Part shown: positions 9,101-50,365 of the stretch, in pieces
Numbering within the stretch: position 1 is the stretch's first letter
Layout of the letters: every line of letters starts with the position of its first letter
Source: Mya arenaria
Taxonomy: Eukaryota > Mollusca > Bivalvia > Myida > Myidae
Length of the DNA: 64,000 nt
Assembly (NCBI RefSeq): GCF_026914265.1
Contig: NC_069123.1
Coordinates: forward strand, 36,603,178 to 36,667,177
Reading direction: 5' to 3'
Program-made: the position numbers and the translations under genes
The notes under the pieces: generated by a model
What the model saw: the letters and a program-made list of their open reading frames with translations, nothing else
Database searches by the model: none
Told to the model about the DNA's origin: nothing

Positions 9101-12100
9101 TTTCAGGATCTCTATCATGTGGTTTTTCTCTGAAAACAAAGATGGTAGTTGTTTTATTTACATCTTAAATCTAAAGCATTAATGATACGATGCCGTTTGA
9201 GACTAGATTTTTGGATTAACAAGCTCAAATTTTTGCAATGTCTTCTGTAACATTAAAACTTAAACAAGGCTTCAATTAGATTTGAAAAAATAGGAGGTTG
9301 ACCTTCCTGATATTGCAATTTATATGATGTCGTTAAGGATCCAGAATTGTTTGAAACAAATAGGAATATTAAGAGTAAGATGAACAAGCTTGTATATGTC
9401 TCAGGACTGAGTCTGTCGAGTTTGTTTAGAAATTATTTTTTATACACTTCACATCTAGATATACCCATTATTTGTAAATCCACCTGATATGGCTGCAATT
9501 TTAAACAATAATGTTGGAATACACAAATTGTTTTGGTAAGAAGTAAACTTTTTGAAAGAATGATTTTAGAAAATAACTATATGATGGTTTGGGACCTCTT
9601 TTCGAAGGAAATGGAGGTTATTCGGGAACAACGTGATTATATAATTCGTAAATTATAATCAGAACAAGAGCTGTCACAGTATGTGACGAATGCCCCCGAA
9701 TGTGACATTGACCTACGAACAAGGTCAGTACATGAAAAGTTGATCTTGCCTTTACGTGTCAAATACATATGGCAAGTTATTTTAAATTGCCTCTGAACAT
9801 AAAAAAATACCACCCATACTTGACAACCTACACTGTTATGTCCTTATATTCAGAATTCCCTTGTGAACAAACACTTAGTGTATCTTTCACCTTAGAGGTA
9901 GGGACATGGGTCTTGCTCACGACACGTCGTCTTCGTATGTGGAACACATGTAGCAAGTTATTTTAAAATCTGTCCATACAAGAGAAAGTTACAGCCCGGA
10001 CACGACAATCTATACCCTATGTCCTTGTATGCAGCACTCCATTGTGAATAAACACTAAGTGTGACCTTGACCTTTGAGGTAGGAACACGGGTCTTGCACG
10101 CGACACGTCGTCTTGGTATGTGGAACACACGTGGCAAGTTATTTTAAAATCTGTCCATACAAGGGAAAGTTACAGCCCGGACACGACAACCTATACTCTA
10201 TGTCCTTATATGCAGCACTCCATTGTGAATAAACACTATGTGTGACCTTGACCTTTGAGGCAGGGACACGGGTCTTGCACGCGACACGTCGTCTTGGAAT
10301 GTGGAACACATGTGGCAAGTTATTTTAAAATCTGTCCATACAAGAGAAAGTTACAGCCCGGACACGACAACCTATACTCTATGTCCTTATATGAAGCACT
10401 CCATTGTGAATAAACACTAAGTGTGACCTTGACCTTTGAGGTAGAGACACGGGTCTTGCACGCGACACGTCGTCTTGGTATGTGGAACACATGTGGCAAG
10501 TTATTTTAAAACCTGTCCATACAAGGGAAAGTTACAGCCCGGACACGACAACCTATACTCTATGTCCTTATATGCAGCACTCCATTGTAAATAAACACTA
10601 AGTGTGACCTTGACCTTTGAGGTAGGGACACGGGTCTTGCACGCGACACGTCGTTTTGGTATGTGGAACACATGTGGCAAGTTATTTTAAAATCTGTCCA
10701 TACAAGAGAAAGTTACAGCCCGGACACGACAACCTATACTCTATGTCCTTATATGCAGCACTCCATTGTGAATAAACACTAAGTGTGACCTTGACCTTTG
10801 AGGTAGGGACACGGGTTTTGTACGCGACACGTCGTCTTGGTATGTGGAACACATTTGGCAAGTTATTTTAAAATCTGTCCATACAAGGGAAAGTTACAGC
10901 CCGGACACGACAACCTATACTCTATGTCCTTATATGCAGCACTCCATTGTAAATAAACACTAAGTGTGACCTTGACCTTTGAGGTAGGGACACGGGTCTT
11001 GCACGCGACACGTCGTTTCGGTATGTGGAACACATGTGGCAAGTTATTTTAAAATCTGTCCATACAAGAGAAAGTTACAGCCCGGACACGACAACCTATA
11101 CTCTATGTCCTTATATGCAGCACTCCATTGTGAATAAACACTAAGTGTGACCTTGACCTTTGAGGTAGGGACACGGGTTTTGTACGCGACACGTCGTCTT
11201 GGTATGTGGAACACATTTGGCAAGTTATTTTAAAATCTGTCCATACAAGGGAAAGTTACAGCCCGGACACGACAACCTATACTCTATGTCCTTATATGCA
11301 GCACTCCATTGTAAATAAACACTAAGTGTGACCTTGACCTTTGAGGTAGGGACACGGGTCTTGCACGCGACACATTGTCTTGGTATGTGGAACACATGTG
11401 GCAAGTTATTTTAAAATCTGTCCATACAAGAGAAAGTTACAGCCCGGACACACCAACCTATACTCTATGTCCTTATATGAAACACTCCATTGTGAATAAA
11501 CACTAAGTGTGACCTTGACCTTTGAGGTAGGGACACGGGTTTTGCACGCGACACGTCGTCTTCGTATGAGGAACACATTTGGCAAGTTATTTTAAAATCT
11601 GTCCATACAAGGGAAAGTTACAGCCCGGACACGACAACCTATACTCTATGTCCTTATATGCAGCACTCCATTGTGAATAAACACTAAGTGTGACCTTGAC
11701 CTTTGAGGTAGGGACACGGGTCTTGCAGGTTTCACGTCGTCTTGGTATGTGCAACACATGTGGCAAGTTATTTTAAAATCTGTCCATACAAGAGAAAGTT
11801 ACAGCCCGGACACGACAACCTATACTCTATGTCCTTATATGCAGCACTCCATTGTGAATAAACACTAAGTGTGACCTTGACCTTTGAGGTAGGGACACGG
11901 GTCTTGCACGCGACACGTCGTCTTGGTATGTGGAACACATGTGGCAAGTTATTTTAAAATCTGTCCATACAAGGGAAAGTTACAGCCCGGACACGACAAT
12001 CTATACTCTATGTCCTTATATGCAGCACTCCATTGTGAATAAACACTTTAGTGTGACCTTGACCTTTGAGGTAGTGACACGGGTCTTGCACGCGACACGT

Positions 12101-15100
12101 CGTCTTGGTATGTGGTACACATGTGGCAAGTTATTTTAAAATCTGTCCATACAAGAGAAAGTTACAGCCCGGACACGACAACCTATACTCTATGTCCTTA
12201 TATGCAGCACTCCATTGTGAATAAACACTAAGTGTGACCTTGACCTTTGAGGTAGGGACACGAGTCTTGCACGCCATAGTCGTCTTGGTATGTGGAACAC
12301 ATGTGGCAAGTTATTTTAAAATCTGTCCATACAAGGGAAAGTTACAGAGCCGGACGAACGGACAGACGGACAGACGGACGGACAGACGGACGGACGGACG
12401 GACGGACGGACGGACGGACGGACGGACGGACGGTGCGATTTTAATATGCCCACCTTCGGGGGCATAAAAACTAAGGCTCCTGATCTAAAATTCAGATGGT
12501 AAATTTATGTAAGTAACAATGTATGTTTATTTAAAGAACAAATTTACATGCCAAACTTAATACCAAAGTCCCAACGAAATGTCAGTACACTGCACCAAAA
12601 ATTTTCAACTGTAGAAAAGTGGAATTATTTGAAGAAATCTCAAAAAAGTTCCCGATTGATTCATTTTAAACAAAATATCATTTGAATGCAAAACAATCAC
12701 AGAAGAATTGCATTATAAGGGTTTTGCATCAGGGGCTTTAAAATGACCTGGCAGCTGGGTTGAACTGGGCCTCATCCCTACCCTGCTACCCCTTTGAAAC
12801 CTCAAGTGAAAGGCCATCAAATCCCAGTCTACTTTCAGATACAGTAAAACTGCGATCGCTCGAGGTCGCCAGGGGCCGAGCCAAATCCTCGAGGGAACCG
12901 ATGTTTCGAACGACCCAATTATCAATTTTCCAGTTTGATATGAAATATCTTTCAGTGCATTTTAAGTTTTGAAGTCGTCAAACAGACTGTTTACTAAGAC
13001 ACCGATTACGTGCTAATATGTTCAAAGGTTGTCGTAAACTAAATGTAAAACGCAAAAGAAAGAAAAAATGAATATATAGAAATGTTTATTTAAACAAAGA
13101 AGCACATTGTCGTAACAAGCAATATTTGAATGACAGTAAATATCGTGGTATTAGTCAGATTTAAGTTTCGCAAAATCAAGGATTGTTAATTGGCGCATCT
13201 TGTCGGTTTCGCGAAACTGTTCAATCGTAAGGTGATGCAAAGTGACAAGAGGGAAGTCCTTTCAGAGATTCTGATGTTGGATCGATATGGTAGTGTTTTA
13301 TTCATATTTTTATTACTCATTTAAATTTATCACAATTAACTTCTCGTCATTAACTTCTCATAATTATCATCTCAAATGCCCATATCAACTAATATCAGTC
13401 CTTCACACCATATCAAATTGCCTTTCAACTGTCATTGCAATTTTTACAACTTGCGAAAATTTTAATACCTAGCAATTGTTTGTTTATTTTGGAACACGCG
13501 TTCGGGAAAAAGTGTGAAATTATGTCCTCGAGGGAGCCATAAGGTTTTGTGCACGATTTGTGTACTTGGGTCCGAGGATATTGCTCGACTGCTCGACATA
13601 ATTAGGTTTCGATGCAGCGTGGGTATATTTTATATGAAAATAGAAGGAAAAAAGTTCGGGACCAAGCTCCGACCTCGAGGGAACGCCGGTTCTCGAACGA
13701 CCGCTTGTTTGAGGGAACGCAGTTTCACTGTATTATCCAACTACTTTCAAACCAAATGAAACCTCTGAACAGGGTAGGCGAATTATAGGTACAGGTCAAA
13801 AAGTGGTCCATAACCAGTAAATAAATATGAACAAACCATCAATGTTTTCCTTGAGAGCCCGTACACAGTTGTGCGAGGGCTGATCACTTAGGGCCACCAT
13901 CAGTCCACATTCTCCCGTACAAAGCATCTCACGGTGATCACAGCTTGATGTTTCGTGTGCCTCTATCTCTCTACGTTGTAGCTGGCGCCCACACTTGGTG
14001 AATCTGCACGTTCTCATTTCAAAACCACAGTTTGAAACATGGCGATCAAAATGCTCCAACATAATCTTCTCCACGCAGCCATTCATCCGGTTATCACATA
14101 TCATCAACATTCTGCAAAGGACACAGGTTCATCACAAAATTGAATGAAGGATGGTTTCAACTTAAAGCCATTAACTATATACAATTTCAAATAATATTCT
14201 CACTCCTCCCAAAGCAGGACAGATATGCAAAGAATACCAATTAAACTTTCTCATCATGGATATATTAAGACAAGGTCCAACTGAAAGTTCAAAATTAGAT
14301 ACATATAATTTTTCGAGAGAAAAAAGCATAAGGCCAAATAAAAAATAGGTGCGTTTCAGGTAACGCTGCCAAAAAAATAGGGTAGGTAGGTCGGAATATT
14401 TTTTTTATTTTTTATTTTTTATTTTTTTTAAATATTGATTTCAGTAACTGTTGACTCAGAAAGTAACAAAAATAAAAGTCATCAATTTTCAGGTTTATCA
14501 GTAGTTTTTAAACATGTTCCATGCTTCAAAGGAAACATTCTTTATTTGTCTGGTTAAATAATTTGACAATGATGGTTGGATTTCAACTAAGTTATGGTAC
14601 ATCACTCTGCTATTATTTAAGACTTTCCAGGAACGGTTTTACTTTTCTTTATGCACCCTTTTGCTTTCAATCACCCTCTGTAAAATGCTTACCTCCCTGT
14701 AACATAATAACATGAAAAGTGGGACAGCAAATTTACCATATAAGCCATCAGCCAAGGAACCGCAATGCTGTCAAGAGGACCTGGGGGTTCAGGTTTGAAG
14801 AACAAGTAACATGCAGGTTTTATTGCCAAAATTGCACACTTAAGTCTGACATATCAATCCGAAAGTCAGTATCTGACACATTTGTATCTGACAAGAAAAT
14901 ATAGTTCAAGAATTAAAATATACCTGCCACACAGGCACAAACTACCGGTAATTCACCTTAGAGTTCGGACAATCTAATAATTCGGACATCCATTATTATT
15001 TTCAAAAATAATTTATTTTAGGTACCTAATTTTCGGACACCCAAAGGACATCGATTGTAACTTTTACAGTTACTAAGTCTCACAGACAAAAATTATTGAT

Positions 15101-17905
15101 CTTTATCGTTACAATACCTGGCTAGATTACCTAACCGTATACATCACTGTGATAAGTATTTTTACTTTACAGCGTTTCGCAGTATAGCTGGAAAGTATTG
15201 TCTTTACTGTACGGTCAGTTTGACCACAGTTGACCAATAGGTGATCGAGTTTTGTTATGAGGGGTCGTGTTATCCAATAGAAAAGATTAACGGTATAGAC
15301 CGTGATTTTGGAGTCGAAAATTGATTCAGTTCTAGCATGCACAGTAGTCTGGACATTTCGGTTTTCTTTAATTTTCAAAATTGATTTTGTTGAAAAATGT
15401 ATGTTATATTGATAGCTTTACTAATTTTTGGGGTTTTCTGTTTTTGATAAATACATGTAGTATAATTGTTTAAGAAAGGATGCCTTAGATATATTAGAAT
15501 AATATTAATTAGAAGTGTTAAAAAGAATAAACGGGTGCAGTTTTCCAGAGCATTTTTACACCATACTATTTGTGTGAATTTTTATCTCTGGTTTTTACTC
15601 TGGCCTATTGTATAGGAAAAGCTTTCATTTGAATATATATGTTTTCAAGATATCAGTGATTTGTGTACAAGAAAATTTGGACTAAACCTACTTTGTCATA
15701 TTGTCAAGGAGCATGTTTCATGATTTGTATGCAACTGTGAAAGCTCTCATAAATATATAGATTTATTATCTATACATATTCCGATATTGACAGACATGCT
15801 TGCTGAATAAAATGTGCTTAGCATTTGTGCACGCTATCGGCCAAACAGATATATTTGTTGAGTTGTTGATTTAAGTATAGATATTAGGGTGAAGTAAAGT
15901 ATAAACTGAGTAATGGAAAGACAGTTAGTTACTACCCATCCTAAACGATTTATTGCCTGTTGAAAAATATGAGTGATATATCTAATGGAGGATTAAAGAA
16001 ACAACAAGGGCAATCAAGAGATTAAGAAAACACAGACATGACATGTTTGTAAAACGATCCGCCAATAAACTTTGAAACTTGTACCACACTTTAAATATAG
16101 ACTTTATGAAGCAATAATCGTACAGTAATACTCATTGTGACATCAAATCGACACATTCAATGCTACAGGTAACTATATAATGTGATGAATTAAAGTTAGA
16201 AATGAAATACTTAAGTTACAATCGAAAACACCACTCAGAAACATTAATCCTGCATAGCAATATGCATGCTCTCCATGTCAGAGATCCTCGTGGGTATAAC
16301 TGAGAGTTATGTGACGTCACACAATGTGACTGTTTGATCTGAAGCCGATAAAAGGTGTTTATTCATTTCAATGCATGTATAAAATTGTGTTGAATGGGAT
16401 TTAAATTAACTTGATGAAGGAGTTACACTTATAGGCGTAATAACCATTGATAACTACGGATACATTAATAAGTGGTAAAATGGCAAACATAAAGAAAAAA
16501 GGCAGGTTTACCATAATGTAAAAATGGTTATTTTCTATGAATTCGGAGAGCGAAAAATTAATTATTTTAAGGTGTCCAAACTCTAAGGTGAAGTACGGTA
16601 AATACATTCAGAAATCTAACTCTAATATTGTCAACTTTACGTACATACATTTCGTAACAAATGCTTTTCGTACCCAAATCACATTTTTTTCAGGGGAAAA
16701 TAGGTTAGGATCGGCGGGAAAAAATAGGGTCGGTCGGGTAACTTGAAACAGACCTATTTTTTTATTTGGCCTAAGCCTGCAAGCCATGCACTAGTAAAAT
16801 GCTTCATGGGTTTGCTCAAATTCTGGTTTTTATATAGCTGGCTTTGCTGAAATTTATTAATGGCAAAAACTAGTCAAGTCAGGTATTTTCTACAAGTCTG
16901 ACTATCGGACCCATTCCCCTTGCAAAATATCTATTTTACCCATTTTAAGAAATCTTCCAATGTAAATAAAAAAAAAAAAATGAAAAATGATAAACTTTTT
17001 ACTTGTAATTTATCATTCAGCACCCTCATCAATTGTGTGATGTAAAGTTTTGAGGATATTTGAATTCAGAATTCTTTGTTTTGCATCACATTCATGATTC
17101 AGAGATCAGTATGCAATATTAACTGTCTTTTTGAAGCAGAGATTTACAAAGGTCTAATATTGAAAGGTTAAAGAAACTAATATTTCAATAATTTCCTCAT
17201 TTTTCTCAGAAAGGCTAGTTTCCTATTCTTTATGAATCAGAATCAGAATACGTAAAGCAATTATTTTTTCTCAAAAGCTTTAGTTTTCACAAGCCAGATG
17301 TAGTATTCATTCTGTTTTCTAAATCAAAATCACTGACTTTTGACAAGACCCTGAACCATGAAATATTTTTCTGAAAGTCTAAAAAAGAAACAACCTTCAT
17401 GATTTTGTTTACATCATATTCATCATTGTTCTTAAATGAAAATGCAAGGGATTTAGAAATTCTACTGCTTTTGAACCCAATCAACCGGCTTGGAGACCCA
17501 AACCTCTCTTTCTGACATTGCCAGAGGTTGACATGTCTTCAAAATGTCATACTTCAAGCCACAAATTTTCCCAATAATTATGTCAAGTGTCTTTTTCCCA
17601 AAATTGAGATAAAAAAGACTAACAAGTTTAATTTCAATGCCTGCAATGTGGAATGACAATAGTGAACTAAACCTGTTGAGCATATTCTGGACGAGAGGCA
17701 GTACAGGTTTGAGGTCCTGTTTTTTCGTCCGTGTGCGGCAAGTGGGGCAGGTGTGCCGGTTCGTAAGCCATCGCTCAATGCACACCTGACAGAATACATG
17801 CCGACAAGGGCACTCCACTGCACGGTCTAGTACACACTGACAGATACAGCAAACCAGGTCAGGATCTGGCGGAGGATCAAACTTCTCGATGTCATACCGT
17901 GACAT
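6161..17905 (-). CDS. RING finger / TRAF-type zinc finger E3 ubiquitin ligase-like protein
   Basis: Three coding exons on the minus strand (17905-17673, 14111-13837, 9129-6161) join in frame at GT/AG sites to give about 1,158 residues. Exon 1 carries a complete C3HC4 RING: C19, C22, C34, H36, C39, C42, C53 and C56. Exon 2 (residues about 79-169) is a Cys/His-rich TRAF/SIAH-type finger ending in PSHNCVRAL, resembling the layout of RNF151 and RNF41/NRDP1. Exon 3 opens with a predicted coiled coil (residues about 171-205, KLQELNNLSQSLKDQLEQL) and continues as an acidic, Ser/Asp/Asn/His-rich, probably disordered tail of about 950 residues. RNF151 and RNF41 are roughly 250-320 residues, so the tail is the unusual part. 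Known relatives transfer ubiquitin to substrates; no substrate can be read here. Start chosen at 17905 because it gives the family-like N-terminus (MSRYDIEKFDPPPDP). Both introns are packed with transposons. The two module exons are secure, while the junction into the tail rests on splice-site reading alone. Confidence 0.85.
6824..6904 (-). repeat. Three identical 27-bp repeats inside the RING-gene tail
   Basis: The three units 6824-6850, 6851-6877 and 6878-6904 are identical base for base and encode SPSHGGTRY three times in frame. Identity at silent positions indicates recent expansion or ongoing homogenisation. The repeat lies in the low-complexity tail, where length change would be tolerated. 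Confidence 0.95.
9770..12345. repeat. 181-bp tandem array with alternating unit types
   Basis: The anchor GGCAAGTTATTTTAAA recurs at 9770 and then from 9950 to 12303 at intervals of 181 bp (13 intervals sum to exactly 2,353 bp). Fourteen units after the diverged first one alternate strictly between CAAGAGAAAG and CAAGGGAAAG, so the true period is a 362-bp dimer. Secondary markers also recur at the dimer spacing, such as ACATTTGGCAAG near 10855, 11217 and 11578, and CATTGTAAATAAAC near 10585, 10946 and 11307. Open frames within it are by-products. Confidence 0.95.
12353..12434. repeat. (GACG)n microsatellite
   Basis: A run of GGAC/GACG tetranucleotides with a few AGAC variants directly follows the last 181-bp unit. 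It belongs to the surrounding element, in which it lies close to the 5' terminus. Confidence 0.95.
12842..13730. mobile_element. TA-flanked non-autonomous DNA transposon, 889 bp
   Basis: The left end CAGTAAAACTGCG and the right end CGCAGTTTCACTG are inverted copies, and TA directly flanks both (12840-12841, 13731-13732). Farther in, both ends share inverted blocks around CCTCGAGGGAAC and CGAACGACC. TA duplication with CAGT termini fits the Tc1/mariner-pogo group. No transposase frame remains. Confidence 0.75.
14332..16771. mobile_element. Outer element of a nested pair (TAA-flanked)
   Basis: The ends GGCCAAATAAAAAATAGGT and its inverse ACCTATTTTTTTATTTGGCC start inverted repeats of about 60 bp that continue through GTTTCAGGTAAC and the GGTAGGTCGG-like blocks. 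TAA flanks both sides (14329-14331, 16772-16774), as for PIF/Harbinger elements. The present 2,440 bp include a 1,654-bp insertion; without it and one TA the original element would be about 784 bp. No coding capacity was seen. It lies in intron 1 of the RING gene. Confidence 0.7.
14945..16598. mobile_element. Inner nested element, 1,654 bp (TA-flanked)
   Basis: The left end CCGGTAATTCACCTTAGAGT and the right end ACTCTAAGGTGAAGTACGG form imperfect terminal inverted repeats, with TA on both sides (14943-14944 and 16599-16600). The repeats extend through the GTTCGGAC / GTGTCCAAAC blocks. The interior is AT-rich and holds no frame that I recognise. TA duplication suggests a Tc1/mariner-pogo relative. 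Confidence 0.65.
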
Positions 17906-21732: not shown

Positions 21733-24700
21733 ATGGCTGCCTTACGAAAGCTAACCTTGTTGGGGAAATCTAGCCTTTCAAACATAAATAGATGCTTTAA
21801 AAATCAGATACGACTCTCTTCACATTTTCCAATTGATGATAATTTATATGGCCTGTCAGATGAACAAAAACAGGTATGCTGTCATCTTCTTGATCATTCA
21901 GTGATGGTGTCAAGATCTTGTTTACTAAAATAAAACATGCAAACACAGTTACCTAGTACAGGGGACAGAGGTTTATAAAATGAAATGTGTTTTTGAAATC
22001 ACTGATGTATAAAAGAATCCACTTTTGTTCAAATTGTAACATGCAAGGTCAGCAAGGCCAACACATCCCTTCAGAGTATAGCATGCTGAACCCTGAAGGC
22101 TGAAGGGGTCGTCTGGTCTTATACATATATAGACCCTAAACCTCCACACGGTGAACTGGATAATGCAATTTGCATATAACCAACGAAGGACACCATCGTT
22201 CTAAGAACTCACTTCACCTACAGCACTCATCAAAATTAGACTTTTGGATCAACAAGCCCGAATTATTATACTATACTGGCTAAGGTCACAAATCCGAACA
22301 CTTCTTGAGGTTTTTCACAATTATCTTGGAGAGTTTTTGTTGTAGTAAGTTAAAACTGCGTATGAAACATCTTTGGTTAATGTGACAAAATCTGTCAAAG
22401 TACAGATTCATGATCTCATCAATTTTATGTCGAAAATCGTTCAGTTTATGGACAGTAAATCACCCTTAAATTTATGCTATGGAGGGCACAAACACCGAAC
22501 ACTTGCAAAGCGAAAATACATGGTCATACAATTATAATTTATAAGTATGCTATATTAAATAAAAGCTGTAAAGTTATTTATTGTTGCCGATGTTTTTCAA
22601 AACATGCAATTCAAATGTAAAGCGTGATTTCTATTTATAAATATCTTGAATGTGGGTCAACATAACTGCAAAACCTAAAGATGTGCGTGCACTCTCTGAC
22701 GTCATTCCCCCATGTGCTACATTTTGATCTTTAAGCGTAAACACACTGAATGGCATTTTTTAGAAAAATACTTAACAAAACAAGATGAAACTTCGCAAAT
22801 GTGACCAAGGCAAGCCTCTGTATTGATCTAGATCATTGAATAATCGATCACGTTAAACAAACGCGTGTTTTAGCCGGTGTTCGGGATTTGTGTCCTGTTC
22901 GGAAATGTACCGTCAACCAGTAGCTTGGCATCAATTTTTTTAACTAGCCCTGCTGTATAAAATTCAGAATTTGAGCAAGCCCGAAAGACATTTTACCAGT
23001 GCAGGGCTTACGGGCTTGTGCTTATTTCGACCACTGCCTACAGCGGAACATTATATTACTTTCCCCACCGAGAAGACTCATACAGAGTCTTAGCCAGGGA
23101 AACTTGTGGGTAAGGCAACTCTGATCTGGCAGTTATCTTCATCCAAATGCTGCCACCGTTTGTAACGTGGGAGGCCAGCCAGGCCAACAGGTCCCTTCAG
23201 AGAAAAGCATGTTCAACCCTGAAGGGGTCGACTCGTCTTATATATGTATATAGACCCTAAACCTCCACACTGAGAACTGGATACTGGTTGGGAAGCAGTT
23301 TCCGACGGAAAGCAGTTTCCGACAAATCACATTTTCGCGTACTTTCTTTAGATCTTCATAAAGAAGGTACTGCAATTCAACTATATGGTAACTAGGCAAT
23401 CAAAAGTTGAAATTTTTACCGAGACACGTAAGTAACTTTTATTATGATTTAATGTTTAATGGTTTTTTTTTCATTTTGTACACAAACTTGCACGTGGGGG
23501 ATCGACACGCGCAGCGTATTGCGCATGCGTGTGAACCTAATTTGCATATCTATGAATAGCTACAAGGTTTTCCTTAATTGACTTATACAAACGATGATCA
23601 ATGAAATTGTGTACATTTTTGTGAACATTGGTGTCATGCTTGTTTCGCACCCGCATTCACTTAAATGTATCCAAACACAAGTTTCTATCAGAAATGAATC
23701 AAAATATGATTGATATTCAGTGTCTGCCTGATTTCGAGTATGAATTGACGGTCGTAAATTTTAAAGTTTAAATTTTTCGTAAATGCTGAAAAATTAAATA
23801 ATATTTCTCTTTTAACAGTCTTATATTTAATATATTAAATAAACAGATAATAAAAACACATAATAGGCACCTTAAATCTGCCCCGAATTCGATTTGTCGG
23901 AAACTGCTTCTCATCACAAGCTAATCAGAATAGTGTAAGTACCCTCTTTGCGCCCCTATTAGATACACTATATGTGACGTCACACATGTGAAAAATATAT
24001 CGACAAAAGCAGCTTGAGCTGTAGTTATCTAAAAAGTGAACAATTTTAGTAGGTGTTTAAAAACGTATCAATAATTCAATAAAAACGTATAAAAACTGTC
24101 GGAAACTGCTTCTCAACCAGTATGCCAATTTGCATATTACCAACCAAGTACACCAACATACTATGAACATAGTTCTGCCTACAGTATATTCTGAAATAGT
24201 TAGATAACATGAATTTTAATCTTAATTATTAAGAATGGGGGGAGTGAGCTAACGATTGAGCCATTCTTAATCATTAAGATTTTAATTCAGGTCATCTAAC
24301 TGACTAAGAAGTCAACCTAATTAGCTGACACATTGTCAAAACAAAGTCTGACACAGGGATTATGTATAGGATGAGTGGCAGTGAGCGGACCTTTACACAA
24401 TCACAAAAGTTGAGATTCTTAATGATTAAGCATTTAGTACTTAATAAATGCCTATCTGCAATTTCATTGGCTGTAAATGTTGGTTGTATTCTTGAACATA
24501 TTAGAATTTTAATGTTTCATTCTACTCTTAATCACTGAGACAAACCCTGTTAATTTTATCCATGGAAATGTTCTGTAGTCTGCGTTATACATGAAGGAGA
24601 ACTTTTCATTTTTAATTTCATGTATGTTTATGTAGTTGTAACCCTCTGTCTTCTGCTGTCTGCAATCTGTATTTCTACAATAAAAGGAATGATTGTACAA

Positions 24701-27700
24701 CTATTTGAGGTGATCTGTTAGAGACACAACAAGACATCAGTGTCTTTCCATCCCTTTTAGTGAGAGGGGTCATGGTAAATCATAAAAAAGCAACAAAAAC
24801 ATATTTTAGACTTCTCAACATTCTATTCTTGTGAATTATACAGTGAATGTTTCTTTTTTGTTTTTTAGCTTCGAGAAACAGTATTTCAGTTTGCTCAGAA
24901 AGAACTTGCTCCGTACGCAGATGAGATTGATAAAACCAACTCCTTTCCTCAGATAAAGGTTAGTTATTCATATTTGAAATGATATCAAATGAAGTAACGG
25001 AACAGCTTCTAAAGTCAATAAAATATCATTTTGTTCAACTAATTTGAATTTTGTTTACTGTATTGTTATTTTTGATTTTATTCAGGTAGATAATTTGAAT
25101 GAGTATACAAATTGAATTTGCATAGAAATAAATGAATGTGCTATTTGCATTTATAGAAACTTTGAAGATATCAAGGAACACTATCATGCTTTTTGTCCAG
25201 GACTGGTCCCATATTTTTCATATTGGGTCAATAAATTATATCGTACCAAAATGGTGTCTATTTTCATTCCCATGATAAATGAAACATTTCAAGTCAATTT
25301 ACCAATGTAAACAGGCTATCTATGTGATATATACATAACAGGGTTACCGGTAGTAGGTGATCCAATATGGGTTATTCAGGGCACAGGAAACCATGTTTAG
25401 TGAGAACGATGGTTTCTTTTCCACAGTATATCCCATATTGGGTCCTCTACTAACCCCCTAACTTCTAATATCTAAAACCAGTAGGCAATTATACAAGTAA
25501 ATGATGAAATTTGGTAAAATTATGGTCTGTAAGTTCTATAGAGACTTTCTTGTGTGATACCTGAACGCCATGACTGAAGGTAGTGATCTAATGCTGCGCC
25601 TTTATGTTTCTTTTGTTTAATGCAGGATTTCTGGAAGAAATGCGGAGAACTCGGACTGCATGGAATCACAGCCCCTGGTAAATATACTACCCGTTACATT
25701 AACTGTATAATTGTTAGTTACGTGATTGTAAATATGAATCTAAACGTTTGGATGAACAAGCTCTAATCTTGGACTTGTGCTCTGCTTAAAAAAGTAATAG
25801 TCAGTAGTCCATGTTATATAAAATGAAAAATTTAGCAAGCCTGGAAAACAGTTTACCAGTACAAGGTTTCTGATCTTGTTCTGATTTCAAACACTACATA
25901 TACATGTTAATGTAATAAATGATCATATACTCCGTCAACAAAACAATCCAGTGGATCCATTCTACCAACGGTGTTAGCCCTCATTGTCATATTGCATTGT
26001 GCAAGGTTGTTGATCAATTTTGTACTGTTACATATGCTCTTTTATGATGTAAATTAAGAATTGGAATGTATGTTGATTTAAATGACAAGCCTAGTAAGTG
26101 GGTATTATTTTCTTTAAAAAAACACAAATTATACCCTCCTCTCTTGTCTAGTGGAGTATGGCGGATTGGAGTTGGGATATCTAGAGCACTGCCTTGTCAT
26201 GGAGGAGCTATCCCGCGCCTCAGGGAGTATCGCCCTCAGTTACGGCGCTCACTCCAACCTCTGTCTCAATCAGATCGTCCGCAATGGCAGTGAGGAGCAA
26301 AGACAAAAATATCTTCCAGACGTGAGTCTATAAATAGATACCGCTTTAGCAGTGTAAACAATTCCATCACTAGCCTGAAATTCTATATTTTTTATTTGAT
26401 GGCTCATCGAAAGACTGTTCTTATTTCATTCAAAGTTGCATTCATCTTTTGAAAGACCCTTGTTATGTAAAGTACCAAAAAACAAACTAGCCCTACAACA
26501 TAAATCACTGGAATTCTGGAAAATGTGTTAGCCTGCAGCTATATAACAGATACATGATTGTGTATAGATTGTACACTGTAAATGTTGAATGCACAATAAA
26601 CCATTCTTCACATGTATACAAAAGCATCATTTGAACTTAAAGTTTTACGATGAAAGTCTGTAGATAACAGTTTATCAAAGTACATGTCAGTAATTTTCTA
26701 TTGGGAAGTGTGCTGCATGAGTAGAAACCACCACATAATGGTTACATATTCGAAATCAGTGTGTTTGTTTGTTAATGTTGATTACTGAAAATGTAACGTT
26801 TTACAAAGACAGATCCTGGTTTCATACAGATGGGACAAATAAAAGAATTCCATAGCTTTACAGTGTTATTGTTTATAACTTTGTCATTTCTGTTTCTTTC
26901 TATGCTTTAGTTGATAGCAGGAAAAACCATAGGAGCCCTAGCCATGAGTGAACCAAATGCCGGGTCTGATGTTGTGTCCATGAAGCTCCGAGCAGATAAC
27001 AAAGGTTTGCTAAATGTCAGAAAAGACTGGAATATATGATTATATCTGTCTGTTTGTTTATCTGTGTGTATTTTAGAGTATTCATGTAGAAGGTCAGAGA
27101 TTTAAGCATCATATGTGTATCATTTCTGAGATAGTAGGTTACTGTTAAGAAAACGCAGATACCTTTTGTATACTTGAGCAGTCAGTTATAAATGGATATC
27201 AAACAAACATTGATACTCGTGAAGGTGAGTAAATGGTTAACATTAGCTCTTTTGAAGTGTTCATCTCATTGTGGCTATTTTTATATGTCTAATTGTAATG
27301 TCTAAATTTGTGTTTTAAGGGGACTACTATGTGTTGAATGGCAGCAAGTTTTGGATTACAAACGGTCCAGATGCTGACGTCCTAGTGGTGTATGCCAAAA
27401 CAGATTTTAACACTGACAAACCCCAGCATGGCATTACAGCTTTCCTCATAGAAAAGGTATTGGTTTTCACTTTAAGACAACTATGAATTAAGTCCTAGAT
27501 TTTCATCTCGCCTGTACCCTCTTTTTTTCTGCCACCCCTTGATTTTTATTGACTCAAATTCAAATGTTGAACTGGGGTATGGGTTCGGTACTGTAAGGAA
27601 TGGCGTTTATTCTATCCGGCCGGTGTTGATGTAAACACTCGCGCATAAAAACAAAAGAAAGAATATGAACACATATTCAACAGTGAGTCATAGAAAAAAA

Positions 27701-30700
27701 TGTTACCCATTCATACGTGTCTACTATCAGATTTCAAAAGAAAAATCAATGAAGCTCAGTTTCAAAACTTCGAAACACAGCCACTTTGTTCTTCTATTTT
27801 TCAAAAGTTTTTTGGGGGGAGTCACATAGCGTTGATGTTCTGCAAAAACCATGACTAGAATAAAAAATGTTTCCGAGATATTCACGTGAACTTTTGTTCA
27901 TAACACACATTTAGAGCAAGACTGGAACTCTGGCTTTAATAATTATTTAGTTATGCCCCTTGTTAGACTGTAAATACAACAACTGACAAGCCTTAATGTT
28001 CACTCATTGATGTTCTTGTCCATCCTTCCTGTCAGTGCTTTGATATCTGTTTTACAGGGAATGGAGGGATTCAGTACTGGCCAGAAACTGGACAAGTTGG
28101 GTATGAGGGGATCCAACACATCAGAACTCATCTTTGAAGACTGTAAAGTGCCAGGTAGTGAATCTTTTGTTTCAGAAGAAATGTAATCATGAGAGTATTT
28201 TTGTGATGGAATTGGGGAGGATAATTTAGATGATGACAAAGCTCCCCCTATCTGTTACATGTTTCTATACAGATAAATCCCAAAACGCATTGTGATTTAC
28301 TCTAGGATTTGACACTAAGGGTGGCTGTTTGTGTGAAAGGAACATGCTAATGGAAAGGCCTTATGTTGAGAGGAAAACCACTTGCATCTAGGGGAATAGA
28401 TTTGAAAAACATTCCTTATGCAAAAATAAGAAATATTTGAAATATAAATATGCTAGGAGATGGGGTTTAAGAATTTTTCTGTGATCTGTATTGTTTCATT
28501 GCAGTAAGCCAGGTGTTGGGCAGTGTAGGTGGCGGGGTGTATGTTTTAATGTCAGGACTTGATGTAGAGAGGGGTGCGGGGTCGGCAGGAACCCTGGGGT
28601 GAGATATAGCCTTTTTTCTGTATGTATTACTCACCTGGTACCTTGTCGGAAAAGCAGCCACTCTTACTATCATTGTCTACTCAGACTAGAGTATGAGAAG
28701 AACAAACAAGAACAAATAAAATAACAAAATTGAATCTATTCCCTCCACTACTTTTGCAGAAAAGTATAATGAGTTGAATGTATTACATGTATATATATAT
28801 ATTAAGTGAATGTTTGCTAAATATAAATCAATTTTATGGAATATTGAAATGTTTCCTATCAAATCTTGTTTGTTCTTTATCATACTGTATATGTCCTTGT
28901 ACACACCCCTCTCTGTATCCGGGCTAGTCTGCAGATAGTATTTTAGAAAGATAACTATATTACTCCCGTGCTATTTTTCCTGCTAGCCTCCCAAATGCTG
29001 GGCAAATCTAATCGGGGTGTGTACGTGTTGATGAGTGGCCTAGATATAGAACGGTGCATCCTGTCCACAGGACCTGTCGGGTAAGTCAACTGTGATCATG
29101 TCATGCCAGGCATAATTATTAACACTATCATCATACATCTAATATCAAACATGTAGGTCTGAAGCATACATTTAATTAATATCATTTTTTGCCATGATGC
29201 TTAAATCTAATTATGTCTGTTTTTTAGCTCACCTGAGCACAAAGTGATCAAGGTGAGCTTTTGTGATCGGTCAATGTCCGGCGTCTGTCGTCAACAATTG
29301 GTTATAATAGTCTTTTTCTCCTAAACCCCTTGGACAATTCTGATGAAACTTCATAGGAATGATCCTTGGTTGGTGCTTTTTCAACATTGTTCAAAGAAAT
29401 TAATTCCATGCAGAACTCTTGTGGCCATGGTAACCTAAAGGAAAATGTCAACAATAGGTTATCATCATCTTTCATAAAGGCAAGATCAACTTTTTATGTA
29501 CTTGTTCATAGGTCAATGTCACATTCGGGGGGCATTTGTCGCATACTATGACAGCTCTTGTTCAATATTCTTTGAGAAACAAGCTATTTTGATAAATAAA
29601 GGTTAAACTCTTTTACTCAGTGAGCGATTTAGGGCCATCATGGCCCTCTTGTTTGTCATTTATAAATTTTTATTTTAATATGAAATAGACCAGGTGATCT
29701 TAAAGTTATTTTTGGTACAAATATTCTTACAGAACATTTATTTTAGCAAAACTATTGCTATAACATGGAACTGTGAATTCTACATGATTTAAAAGAATTT
29801 GCCCGTTGGCAATGGGCAGAATTTCTGACCAGTGTGACATTTATGCCTTCAAAATGCAGTTATGATCATTCAATTCAGGGCAGCTTACTAGGCGTTTGCA
29901 ACATGGGGGGTGGTCGGTCGGGTTCCTGTTCAAGGTCTTCATACTTAAACTTGTTTCAACAACAAAAAAACTTGTTTCAACAACAAAAAATATCTTTGAT
30001 GCAATGTATCAGTATGTTACTGTGATCTGACAGTAAACATGCCATTCTCTTCATGTTCTCTTTTGTTTAATTATCTAAACATTAATTCAGAGTTTTATCA
30101 ATGGTTCAATTGATGACGTATTCAAAGCATTTTTGACACACCGTTGTATAGGCCACTCATCAAAATATTTTGCTTGTCACCTTCCTTCTGTATATGGTAG
30201 CTTATCTGCGCAGTCATATTTGTAGTACTACATGTACTTACAGGATCATTTTTCATTTATAAACCAATATTACACAACTTTAATATTCTTTATATGACTT
30301 GTGTGCAATTTGAATTTAATATCTTACTTGAATACTACAAAGCATAAAAAACTGTTTGTTTGATTTTGAAAGTGAATATTATTATTTTATAAGTGACATT
30401 AACTCTGAGTACTATTATTGATCTTTAGATTTTTGTAGTATAAAGGCCTTTTCACCATTCTTTGCTGTAGTCCATACTCCAGTGTGTGTATACCATGTGA
30501 TAGATTACGTCATATATGCTACATCGGAAGGCAAAAATTTGCTTAAAATGAAGACTTAAATCAAAGGTAACTTTTCATTCACAACACCATTTTAAATGAA
30601 ACAAAGGGCAGTCTATGCTGGTTAAAAGAGCCCCGCATTTGTATTATTTCCGAAATTTGATAGGTCATTAGTATCATCAAACACTTCGACAAACCTGTTT

Positions 30701-33078
30701 CCAAAATAATGTTTTGACAGTGCTCCGTCAGACGGCCGTATTGTGAAAAGGTTTGTTGAAGTGTTTTAAAAACTAAACTCGCAATCAAATTCTGGTAAAG
30801 ACCGAAGGTGGGGCTCTGTAAGCGGTATACTGCGCTTTGTTTCATTTAAATGGTGAAGAAATAGTGAAGTTATCTTTGTTTATAGTCTTTTTTCAAATCA
30901 AAATATTGCCTTCCGACATAGCATTTGTGACGCAATTTATCATGTGGTATTCACTGAGAACACACGTTGATACACCCAGTTGTATAGCAAGTGCCATAAC
31001 TCTGGCTAAATCAGTTATTGGGTTATGCCTCTTGGTGGAATAAGAAAAACGGACAAGCATAGGTATCCCCATGGAGTGCTCTTGTTATTTAAATAATGAA
31101 TTTTTAATGAGATATTTATAACTTTGTTTCTTTTCAGGATCATGCAGGCCTGTTGTGATGTTGCCTTCAAGTATGCGCATGAACGCGAGTGCTTTGGTTC
31201 GAAAATAGGACACTTCCAGGTAATAGAAAATAAGCAATTTATGGTTTTTAATCTGGTCAAACTAAATCAGTTTTGCTATCAATAAAATCAAGTTCAAAAC
31301 CTTTGGATTGGCTTTACCTCTATTTGGACAGCATTCCACTGATAGTATTGTATATAGAATTATTCATTTTATAATCTTAAGCATGTCTGTTTTCTTTTGA
31401 ATAAATGGAGAAGTTGTCATAGTCTTAGTTTTTTTGTTGGTCACGTTTAAAGAATTATGATTATAACTCTCAGTGGGGTTTCTGGTTCTCAATTTAAGTT
31501 TATAATTGGGGTCTTAGGGATGTGCATAAAGTTTGAACCTGGTGTCACTAGACAGAAAATTGTGTCAGGGGTTCATCTGTTTTTTGAGGGACAGAAATTT
31601 TCGCATGCTCGCTTAATGATAAAAAACATAAAGCAAAAAAATCAGATTTTATATGATAACATTGTTTTAGCTTTTGAATTATGATTTTTGATTCAAACAT
31701 TTATATAATATTTCAGATGATACAGGCCAAGTTAGCTAACATGTACGTGACACTGAACGCGAACAGGTCGTACGTGTATAACGTGGCTCGGGCTCTCGAC
31801 CGCGGAAACATAAGTCCCAATGTGAGTATAGAGGCTGAAATATATAACATTGTTTAATGTGTGAGGAATATGATGGCATAAAGATGGCCTTTAATAGATA
31901 TCAGAACTAAGAGGTGGGGGATGGTTTAATCACCCTGAATTTTTGTATCAAAACTAAGAGAAATTGTCATAAAAGTGTTAAATTTGCAAAAGGGCTATTC
32001 CATTAAAAGGTAAAACCCTCCACACAAAGTGAAAATAAAGAAATTCTATACGGGGAGGTTCTTGTGCATTTTTTGCTACAAAAAAAAAAAAGGTGAAGTT
32101 TATTTGAAAGAGCCTTTTTAGGGAGTGTTCTTTGTTTAAATGGAATAGCCTTTACTTAGCATTGAATTTGTAACAAATAGAATGTGTGAGTCAAGGTACA
32201 TGCAGTTGGAAATGGTTATAATTTATCTTCATTTTACAAGCAGAATTACTGAACACTACAGTACAATACTACAGTACCTTTTATTGATTGTAAATGTAAA
32301 AAATGGAGATTTTATTTCAGGACTGTGCTGGTGTGATATTGTATGCTGCCGAGGCAGCAACACAGATGGCGCTGGATGCCATTCAGATCTTGGGTAATTA
32401 GCTTTTTATACATTAAGTTTGAACATGGGTTCATATAGTATCGGTATTATTAATGAATATGTGGAACACTCACTTCTTTTTAAAACTTACTCAGTGTGAG
32501 ATGGAGAGTTTTCTTGTGCTCGCCATGACTACACAAAAAAAAAAAATAGACACGTGCTTCCGTGGTGTTCACAATTGGTAAATTAATGCTTCATACCTAG
32601 CTTTGGGCTGTGTTACTCTAAAAAGAACAGCTGTTTGCTTTTTGAATCACTTCATATATTCCAAGGCATGTGCCATAGTTCTACCTTAAGAAATTAACAA
32701 GAAAATGAAGCCTCCTTTTGAAATCTTTTAGCAAGAATGCTTATTGATTAGTCTATATGATTCTAAATAATTGTTCCTATGAAAATATTCATGTCTATTG
32801 TACAAATTATATTTGTAAATGCTATAGGTACAAAAAAAACCTGAATGCATTGATTGAATAAATTGTAAAAGATAAGTCAATATTTATCCAAATATATTTG
32901 AGGCTTCAAGAAGCCATTGTTTCATTATTAACATTTTTTGCTAGGTGGCAATGGATATATCAATGACTACCCAACTGGCAGATTTTTACGCGACGCCAAA
33001 CTCTACGAGATTGGAGCAGGGACGAGTGAAGTGCGCAGACTAGTCATCGCCAGGGCGATTAACGCTTACTATAAATAA
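21733..33078 (+). CDS. IVD: Isovaleryl-CoA dehydrogenase, mitochondrial
   Basis: Coding exons: 21733-21873, 24869-24958, 25626-25677, 26152-26321, 26911-27004, 27320-27456, 28058-28154, one of 28505-28598 or 28987-29080, 31138-31219, 31717-31821, 32321-32393, 32945-33078. With 28987-29080 all joins are in frame and give 422 residues; the human enzyme is about 426. It oxidises isovaleryl-CoA to 3-methylcrotonyl-CoA in leucine breakdown, with FAD, passing electrons to ETF in the matrix. Visible features are a basic, Ser/Leu-rich N-terminus suited to mitochondrial import ([14 protein letters not shown]), the acyl-CoA dehydrogenase signature [10 protein letters not shown], the catalytic glutamate in the isovaleryl-type position (GLDIER, residue 282), and the C-terminal [19 protein letters not shown] and GAGTSEVRR blocks. 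I chose the ATG at 21733, although an in-frame ATG lies 60 bases upstream (21673), because it gives the usual leader. A polyadenylation signal AATAAA lies at 33930. The gene is notable for its duplicated exon 8. Confidence 0.97.
22040..22235. repeat. Dispersed repeat, copy A
   Basis: The stretch CCCTTCAGAGTATAGCATG to ATATAACCAACGAAGGACACC, including AGACCCTAAACCTCCACAC and CAATTTGCATAT, recurs at 23170-23283 and continues at 24121-24185. It lies in intron 1 of IVD. The family is unknown to me and its ends are approximate. Confidence 0.6.
23170..24185. repeat. Dispersed repeat, copy B, split by an insertion
   Basis: The left part 23170-23283 and the right part 24121-24185 together align with copy A at 22040. 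Copy A serves as the empty site: GAACTGGATA is followed directly by the ATGC-AATTTGC text there, whereas here an 837-bp element intervenes. Confidence 0.6.
23284..24120. mobile_element. TA-flanked DNA element, 837 bp, inserted in a repeat
   Basis: The left end CTGGTTGGGAAGCAGTTTCC and the right end GGAAACTGCTTCTCAACCAG are inverted copies, flanked by TA at 23282-23283 and 24121-24122. Additional internal copies of the AGCAGTTTCCGAC block lie near 23311 and, inverted, near 23893. No transposase frame is visible. TA duplication suggests a Tc1/mariner-like mobiliser. Confidence 0.8.
24198..24301. repeat. 104-bp hairpin-forming inverted repeat
   Basis: The left arm AGTTAGATAACATGAATTTT and following bases pair with the right arm ending in TCATCTAACT. 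The arms are about 40 bp with few mismatches, and the loop is about 20 bases. It could be a minimal MITE. It lies in IVD intron 1. Confidence 0.75.
28505..28598 (+). CDS. IVD: IVD exon 8a, alternative version (94 bp)
   Basis: The acceptor is ATTGCAG (28498-28504) and the donor GTGAGA (28599). Entered in phase 1 from exon 7, it encodes [11 protein letters not shown], then [13 protein letters not shown], then GAGSAGTLG, and leaves in the same phase as 8b, so it joins exon 9 in frame. It keeps the catalytic glutamate and the preceding helix core, but differs from 8b and from the human enzyme both before the core (GSVGG for GKSNR) and after it (GAGSAG where human has LVLAGG). No stop or frame damage is seen. 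It is either a mutually exclusive alternative to 8b or an older copy that is no longer used. Confidence 0.8.
28987..29080 (+). CDS. IVD: IVD exon 8b, canonical version (94 bp)
   Basis: The acceptor is CTAG (28983-28986) and the donor GTAAGT (29081). It encodes [11 protein letters not shown], then [12 protein letters not shown], then CILSTGPVG. It matches the human enzyme better than 8a in the segment after the catalytic glutamate, so it is taken as the standard exon. It is separated from 8a by a 388-bp intron. Confidence 0.93.
29221..29653 (+). mobile_element. Helentron-like non-autonomous element, 433 bp
   Basis: It begins TTTTTAGCTCACCTGAGC, with a 5' hairpin made from GCTCACCT and AGGTGAGC. 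It ends with the hairpin AGGGCCATCATGGCCCT followed by CTTGTT. Subterminal blocks CTCACCTGAG and CTCAGTGAGC are inverted relative to each other. Near 29510-29562 it carries the 3' end of another family (GACAGCTCTTGTT), the same 3' end as the 9663-12472 element, so it is a composite. It lies in the IVD intron after exon 8b. Confidence 0.7.
30490..30965. mobile_element. Long fold-back element (about 475 bp)
   Basis: The left half (TATACCATGTGATAGATTACG, CATCGGAAGGCAA, AAATGAAACAAAG, AAACACTTCGACAAACCT) is mirrored in reverse complement by the right half (AGGTTTGTTGAAGTGTTT, CTTTGTTTCATTT, TTGCCTTCCGACAT, ATCATGTGGTATTC). The two halves meet near 30725, so nearly the whole element is one imperfect palindrome. 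Open frames at 30579-30845 and 30837-31043 are by-products. It lies in the IVD intron before exon 9. Confidence 0.75.
30966..31086 (+). mobile_element. Helentron-like 3' end fragment
   Basis: It includes GCCATAACTCTGGC, a block also seen in the repeat at 37140, and ends GTATCCCCATGGAGTGCTCTTGTT, matching the CTCTTGTT terminus of the other elements in this window. The 5' end is not identifiable. Confidence 0.45.
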
Positions 33079-49250: not shown

Positions 49251-50365
49251 TTATTCAGACGGTCTTGTCAGTGGGACAAGGTAGCCAGAGATAGGTATGG
49301 CTATTAGGTTATGTGTTACTTTGTACATAAGAGAAAGCCTGTTATCTAGTCTTTCATGATCAAGCTTACACCACTGTATAGACTGCATCATGTCAGTGAC
49401 ATTTGATGTTTGCCCATAGGCAGCCGTACGTTGGACAGATTTGAATTGGTATATGTGGGTATCAGCGAAAGGACACCAAACTGTGGTGCAATATTCAAGC
49501 TGTGGGCCGACAAGAACTTTGTAGGCAGAAGTTTTTAATGGTTCAGAGTGTACCTTAAGGTTTTTCCCCAGGCAGCCCAAATGTGCTGTTTGCCTTCTAA
49601 GAGATGCGATTTATGAGAGTGTCCCACAATAGATCTGAGGACAGATCAACACCATGATATTTTGCTGAGGATACAGATTCTGATAAGCAATGGTGAAGTG
49701 TGTACTGTGTTGGAATTGGATTTTTGGCCCTTGTTATGTGAAGGACTTGACATTTAGATGGGTTAAATTCCATGTCCCATTCATGGCTCCAATGTTCAAG
49801 TGTATCAAGATCTTTTTGGAGAATTTCTGATTGTGTTGCCGTTGACCGAGTTAAATAAATGGCAGTATCATCAGCAAATAGTGACGTTGGATTGAACATT
49901 CGGAGGAAGGCCATTAATGTAGACTAAAAAAAGAAGTGGCCCCAGTACAGATCCCTGTGGGACTCCAGATGAGACAGGTATGGGTTCTGATGGCAGGTTT
50001 CTCGTGACTGACTTTGTCGAAAGCATTGTAAAGTCAAGCAAGTTTTTTGTTATGGAGGGATTTGACAAGATCATCTACCAGCATAAGGAGCTGGGATTCA
50101 CAGTAGCGCTTTTCCCTGAAGCGATGTTGGAGTTCATAAAAGGCATTGAGCTTAGTAAGGTGTTTTGAAATAGAGGATGCGACTATATATGTTGTGCACA
50201 TAATACATGTGAGGGAAATGGGCCTGTAGGTAGCGGGATCCGAGCGCTCCCCCTTTTTGTAGACTAGATCCACATTTGCATCCTACCAAATTTTGGGTTG
50301 AATTCCACAGTCAAGAGACTTTTGGAAGAGATGTTTCAGAATTAGTGACACTGAAGTCGAAAGGT
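49251..50365 (-). mobile_element. Broken LINE (Jockey/CR1-like reverse transcriptase fragment)
   Basis: Minus-strand translations carry ANVDLVYKKGERSDP with ATYRPISLTC, the block [20 protein letters not shown], the catalytic-type FADD box in [10 protein letters not shown], and C-terminal text QLEYCTTVWCPF. These are ordered as in reverse transcriptases of Jockey/CR1-type LINEs. The frame is interrupted several times, including a shift around the AFDKV box, and roughly 45 residues are missing between AFDKV-SHEK and the GVPQG block. There is no endonuclease domain, so it is a 5'-truncated dead copy. Confidence 0.85.

Follow-up and report, generated by a model that had tools for sequence, protein, structure and literature searches.

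Why would an isovaleryl-CoA dehydrogenase (IVD) gene carry, side by side, two versions of the exon that encodes its catalytic base, and would both serve to make enzyme? The question is raised by a window of 64,000 nucleotides, the whole stretch of Mya arenaria DNA analysed here, which spans C2:36603178-36667177 in a genome of 1,216,080,610 bases and 18 contigs (positions below are those of the window unless a contig is named). The explanation that we lean towards is that the two versions, exons 8a and 8b, form a mutually exclusive pair through which the acyl-pocket floor is exchanged, with 8b giving the ordinary IVD and 8a an enzyme of altered acyl preference. Judged from its sequence, the gene probably encodes two enzymes that differ in preference.

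The locus contains a complete IVD gene in which exon 8 is doubled

A complete IVD gene of 422 codons lies on the plus strand at 21733-33078, with 12 exon positions, of which the eighth is occupied twice:

21733-21873, plus strand: exon 1, 141 bp from the ATG, MAALRKL...GLSDEQKQ, donor gtatgc
24869-24958, plus strand: exon 2
25626-25677, plus strand: exon 3
26152-26321, plus strand: exon 4
26911-27004, plus strand: exon 5, likewise 94 bp, by coincidence
27320-27456, plus strand: exon 6
28058-28154, plus strand: exon 7, with the 3' end AAA GTG CCA G, the final G being base 1 of a split codon
28505-28598, plus strand: exon 8a, the upstream alternative, with Gly where human IVD has Leu258/L290
28599-28986, plus strand: intron between 8a and 8b, 388 bp; the AG exclusion zone preceding 8b spans just 34 nt
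28987-29080, plus strand: exon 8b, the downstream, canonical alternative
31138-31219, plus strand: exon 9
31717-31821, plus strand: exon 10
32321-32393, plus strand: exon 11
32945-33078, plus strand: exon 12, with TAA at 33076-33078 and YEIGAG corresponding to human Y371, G374 and A375

Exon 1 was located with a self-composed probe for the end of the leader (E = 3.4e-5), and its frame and donor were verified. The spliced protein matched human IVD (1ivh) end to end, over query residues 1-373 of 375 (E = 1.2e-173); this search used the 8a isoform, from which the 8b isoform differs in exon 8 only. Mature human IVD numbering equals the query residue plus 19. The identity of the gene follows from its top match to IVD over the full length, a base at E254 and the presence of G374 and A375.

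Single use of either exon 8 copy preserves the reading frame

Two neighbouring exons of equal length and phase, each with its own splice sites, had been described in the initial annotation, and we found them as described: 8a and 8b are 94 bp apiece, have the same phases, carry their own AG acceptor and GT donor, and lie 388 bp apart. The split codon at the end of exon 7 is completed by either copy equally, and either joins exon 9 in frame, also as annotated; translation through 8a alone or 8b alone, with exon 1 included, runs for 422 codons to the normal stop. The further claim that double or null use shifts the frame was confirmed, with a stop at codon 300 when both exons are included (332 nt before the final exon junction) and at codon 284 when neither is (192 nt before it). 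A stop more than 50-55 nt before the last junction usually triggers nonsense-mediated decay, and we infer that double-exon and null transcripts would be cleared in this way.

These stop positions would also suit a pair that acts mainly as an on/off switch, in which transcripts with both exons or neither are frameshifted and degraded and the level of IVD is thereby tuned. However, a pure poison exon requires neither a conserved frame nor a catalytic residue, and 8a has both, so we regard this reading as very improbable.

With their split codons completed, 8a and 8b are identical at 55 of 96 nucleotides and 19 of 32 residues. When each exon was searched against the 64-kb window by tblastn, the other copy was matched at E = 3.8e-8 and the next-best matches had E = 0.43 and 0.59; no third exon-8 copy with E < 0.4 was found in the window. 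An assembly or haplotype artefact was ruled out, its chance being negligible, since the copies differ at 41 of 96 nucleotides and each has a single match in the 1.216-Gb assembly. The tandem duplication of exon 8 is thus real. Processed gene copies, which could reveal splicing of 8a, were sought by a protein search of the mollusc's own genome with the 8b isoform; the best candidates listed included 34 matches of exon size, the longest of 75 residues, and none of them spanned joined IVD exons.

The pair shows several sequence features of mutually exclusive exons: adjacent homologues, equal length, matching phases and separate splice sites. Loss of the frame with double or null use, also found here, is common in mutually exclusive exons without being obligatory. 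If 8a and 8b are functional alternative exons, their exclusive use is very likely.

Exon 8a has kept its frame and most invariant residues at near-saturated synonymous divergence

The two copies differ by a dS of 2.13 and a dN of 0.42 (Nei-Gojobori); since no more than 25.8 synonymous sites enter the dS estimate (pS 95% interval, 0.52-0.85), it reads as old and not as a date. For comparison we used the best 80 of at least 584 confirmed bacterial IVDs, mostly from Alpha- and Gammaproteobacteria. Twelve exon-8 positions are invariant across these best 80, of which 8b keeps all 12 and 8a keeps 11, and the differences between 8a and 8b fall on 1 of the 12 invariant positions versus 12 of the 20 remaining ones (Fisher P 0.008). 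For the invariant Ser249, 8a uses the codon TCA and 8b the codon AGT; at least two changes separate the two, which is suggestive of a long history under constraint.

We weighed these data against the possibility that the 8a copy is idle or in decay, with splicing through 8b only. The 8a donor (score 5.35) is the weakest of the gene's 12 donors under a matrix built from the other exons, and beats 93% of the 190 GTs in the region; 8a is also slightly further than 8b from the human IVD exon-8 segment (17 versus 20 of 32 residues shared). In contrast, 8a is no further than 8b from the best 80 bacterial IVDs, with a mean identity over the 32 residues of 18.8 for 8a, 18.0 for 8b and 21.3 for human IVD. 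Neutral decay was simulated from 8b as the ancestor (200,000 runs per distance), with indels excluded, a choice generous to the null. The joint outcome of no stop, intact AG and GT, and loss of no more than one of the 12 invariant residues occurred at a frequency of 0.006 at 0.25 substitutions per site and 4e-5 at 0.46, and in 0 of 200,000 runs at both 0.7 and 1.07. Since synonymous divergence is near saturation and yet 8a has an open frame, intact splice dinucleotides and all but one of the 12 invariant residues, it is unlikely to be a relic, and we consider an idle or decaying copy very improbable. That 8a and 8b are functional alternative exons is very likely on these sequence comparisons; IVD exon 8 would have been duplicated in tandem long ago, and both copies retained as a mutually exclusive pair.

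Both copies have Ser-Gln where human IVD has Ala-Asn, the second position being Asn in 79 of the best 80 bacterial IVDs. These two shared residues hint that the duplication postdates the split from the human line.

The exon swap is predicted to alter one half of the acyl-pocket floor

A catalytic glutamate within an LDLER motif had been assigned to both exons. The glutamate, human E254, is indeed present in both isoforms, but 8a encodes the motif as LDVER, and 8b as LDIER. In a 2025 cryo-EM study of IVD (PMC12369846), this base (E286 in that paper's numbering) lies at the bottom of the pocket, L127 and L290 form a barrier there that excludes chains of C7 or longer, M280, D284 and R287 are among the CoA contacts, G406 and A407 give room for the acyl branch, and the enzyme is a tetramer. 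In a single clause the same study describes these leucines as "more compact" with "wider space", against its own legend and discussion, in which both act as a barrier; the chain-length role of L290 is derived from the structure, and the passages that treat it contain no L290 mutant (PMC12369846).

A point absent from the initial annotation is that the lone invariant residue lost from 8a, as defined by the best 80 bacterial IVDs, is the pocket-floor leucine, Leu258 (L290 of the precursor), which is replaced by Gly. Position 258 is Leu in 8b, in human IVD and in 80 of these 80 bacterial enzymes, and position 257, Ala in 8a, is V or I in 80 of 80. In 8a, G, A and T replace human L256, V257 and P262, and the human run L256-V257-L258 becomes Gly-Ala-Gly within the helix that bears the base, with Leu258 four residues past it. 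Position 258 could be read in five paralogues of this genome, which carry I, I, I, M and A there; the isobutyryl-type paralogue (L133) stands outside the comparison because there the position spans an intron. Gly at 258 is thus unusual, while small residues occur there elsewhere in the superfamily, as the paralogue Ala indicates. A paper on SCAD (PMC13027082), as far as it was searched, held no useful information for this position.

The CoA contacts M280, D284 and R287 are kept in both exons, and L290 is missing from 8a only. The equivalents of L127, Y403, G406 and A407 are identical between the isoforms because these positions lie outside exon 8. The exon swap therefore alters half of the pocket floor, whereas the base, the CoA contacts within the exon and the room for the acyl branch stay the same. 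Relative to human IVD (1ivh, 8sgr, 9jq3-9jq5), the enzyme is the same throughout, and both isoforms have E254/E286, Gly374 and Ala375, whereas Leu258/L290 is present in the human enzyme and missing from the 8a isoform.

We propose that one gene gives two mitochondrial acyl-CoA dehydrogenases. The 8b product would be the ordinary IVD. In the 8a enzyme, which has no leucine side chain one helix turn past the base, part of the acyl-pocket floor would be gone, and the enzyme might accept longer or bulkier acyl-CoAs or treat isovaleryl-CoA differently; since the floor leucine is missing, we do not claim isovaleryl specificity for it. Both the deeper pocket and the tolerance of the helix for Gly-Ala-Gly are predictions. 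If the exons are functional and exclusive, an altered acyl preference with catalysis retained is fairly likely.

The two glycines and the Gly-Ala-Gly run in the base helix may instead weaken the fold or kill activity rather than widen the pocket. Exon 8a would then yield a full-length, poorly active or inactive subunit, its helix and pocket disturbed by the glycines; within the IVD tetramer it would depress leucine oxidation or serve as a regulatory (dominant-negative) or moonlighting subunit. The tetrameric state of IVD suits such a role, as does the occurrence of Gly-Ala-Gly at 256-258 where 80 of the best 80 bacterial IVDs have V or I at 257 and L at 258. However, 8a retains the base, which counts against inactivation since an inactivating exon could dispense with it, and the equivalents of R287, D284 and M280 are retained as well. 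We judge an inactive 8a subunit unlikely, while granting it an appreciable minority chance.

Known alternative-exon systems offer partial parallels

Alternative exons change substrate preference or affinity in CYP4F3 and ketohexokinase; these are vertebrate metabolic enzymes different from IVD, and the principle would be the same. The initial annotation knew of no split choice at the catalytic exon of IVD, and our literature searches, outside which most subscription journals lay, likewise returned no description of mutually exclusive IVD exons, although unreviewed genome annotations may list two isoforms. For acyl-CoA dehydrogenases of any kind, none was described in the titles and abstract openings of the matching literature.

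A UbiA family search of the genome located coq-2 on the minus strand at C14:8518425-8525515 (stretch L128, C14:8517500-8525900), with a 131-bp exon duplicated in tandem as a recognisable a/e-type pair (upstream LNWG...YSHQ, downstream FNWG...YAHQ). The two coq-2 copies are identical at 23 of 44 residues, with a dS of 1.99 and a dN of 0.36; these values are similar to those of the IVD pair, for which coq-2 serves as a yardstick, a single control picked for being published. The upstream and downstream residues fit the changes F204L and A243S of PMC8659336, to which they were compared by the named changes only. In the parts of PMC7434440 and PMC8659336 that treat them, coq-2 exons 6a and 6e are mutually exclusive and switch COQ-2 between ubiquinone and rhodoquinone precursors, and the a/e pair is reported in helminths, annelids and molluscs as a marker of rhodoquinone makers. 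The coq-2 and IVD pairs are alike in being equal-length tandem exons of a mitochondrial metabolic enzyme, in losing the frame when both or neither are used and in swapping neighbours of the active site. They differ in that the proteins are unrelated, that coq-2 splicing is documented by RNA-seq whereas the IVD pair is known from sequence, and that the e-type coq-2 exon is tied to rhodoquinone makers whereas the IVD pair is known from this genome.

Exons 8a and 8b could form a splice-controlled gate for acyl chain length that is switched jointly with coq-2 e/a on anoxia. The 8a isoform would then act on longer substrates or other branched ones, perhaps reductively with electrons from rhodoquinol, in the manner of the branched-chain fermentations of some worms; we give this extension only a small chance.

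In the oyster, alternative oxidase has a duplicated exon 10 whose upstream copy dominates in air exposure (PMC5589949). Here, as in IVD, a mitochondrial enzyme of a bivalve has an exon doubled in tandem, with novel residues beside functional sites in the upstream copy, but the oyster exons are terminal and are selected by use of an alternative 3' splice site, whereas the IVD pair is internal. OGDH, also a mitochondrial dehydrogenase, has the mutually exclusive exons 4a and 4b (PMC7969005), but these alter the Ca2+ response and not a substrate pocket.

Taken together, the annotated proposal of a mutually exclusive pair making two enzymes is partly upheld, by sequence architecture, frame logic, constraint on 8a and the coq-2 precedent. 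The category of exon pair is already known, and the distinctive part would be that the chain-length gate of IVD is exchanged. Should both exons be in use, that gate would be removed in the 8a form, and the locus would be a natural pocket-engineering experiment in which one 32-residue segment is swapped within the same enzyme, with the same base and CoA contacts. Leucine catabolism would then join the few mitochondrial enzymes retuned by alternative exons (coq-2, oyster alternative oxidase and OGDH), and the role of L290 could be tested directly in IVD, whose enzyme family is medically important for its inborn errors.

Splice sites and a possible route to exclusion

The 8b acceptor (score 0.24) is the lowest of the gene's 12 acceptors under a matrix of the same type as that used for the donors, and beats 70% of the 143 AGs in the region. 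Other IVD exons, when held out and scored, reached values as low as those of the 8a donor and 8b acceptor, or lower. The AG exclusion zones measure 31 nt before 8a and 34 nt before 8b, and branch-point layout was judged from these zones alone. In OGDH, exclusion is enforced by branch points that lie 25-41 nt away from the 5' splice site (PMC7969005), a layout not apparent in IVD; the 388-nt intron and the 34-nt AG zone argue against both steric exclusion and a distant branch point of the OGDH type. The splice-factor motifs GCATG and CTAAC were each absent from the three introns examined. The best 40-nt duplexes between introns reached -30.2 to -30.8 kcal/mol, compared with -26.9 to -29.5 kcal/mol for the best of 12 mononucleotide shuffles, a weak control. 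The simplest mechanism would be regulated exon choice combined with decay of the frameshifted double and null forms, and the choice between 8a and 8b would be under tissue or condition control.

Other acyl-CoA dehydrogenase loci and neighbouring features of the window

Nine stretches with other acyl-CoA dehydrogenase exons contained no in-register internal pair except on contig C7, where one stretch has repeats and a triplicated terminal exon; this negative is soft, because low-complexity masking hid the IVD pair too, which was recovered unmasked. The C7 stretch (L136, about 40482.7-40486.2 kb) holds three diverged tandem copies of the terminal exon, at L136 positions 5208-5351, 6808-6951 and 8505-8651, of what we take from its appearance to be an ACAD10/11-type gene. 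Neighbouring copies share 57-60% nucleotide identity, and the copies have their own AG acceptors and end in AKL, PKL and AKL, like peroxisomal signals. They may thus offer a choice of last exon in another acyl-CoA dehydrogenase gene.

Elsewhere in the window, repeated open stretches at 9871-12347 mark a tandem array whose period is about 181 bp, and a serine-rich ORF of 992 residues without obvious family lies on the minus strand at 6161-9139. By eye, minus-strand ORFs at 49251-49914 resemble fragments of a non-LTR element reverse transcriptase, and those at 13796-17905, also on the minus strand, are RING-finger/zinc-finger-like and probably belong to a TRAF-type or RING ligase gene. On the plus strand at 56449-58773, exons like those of a cytochrome P450, one with a 15-residue motif, were recognised, again by eye.
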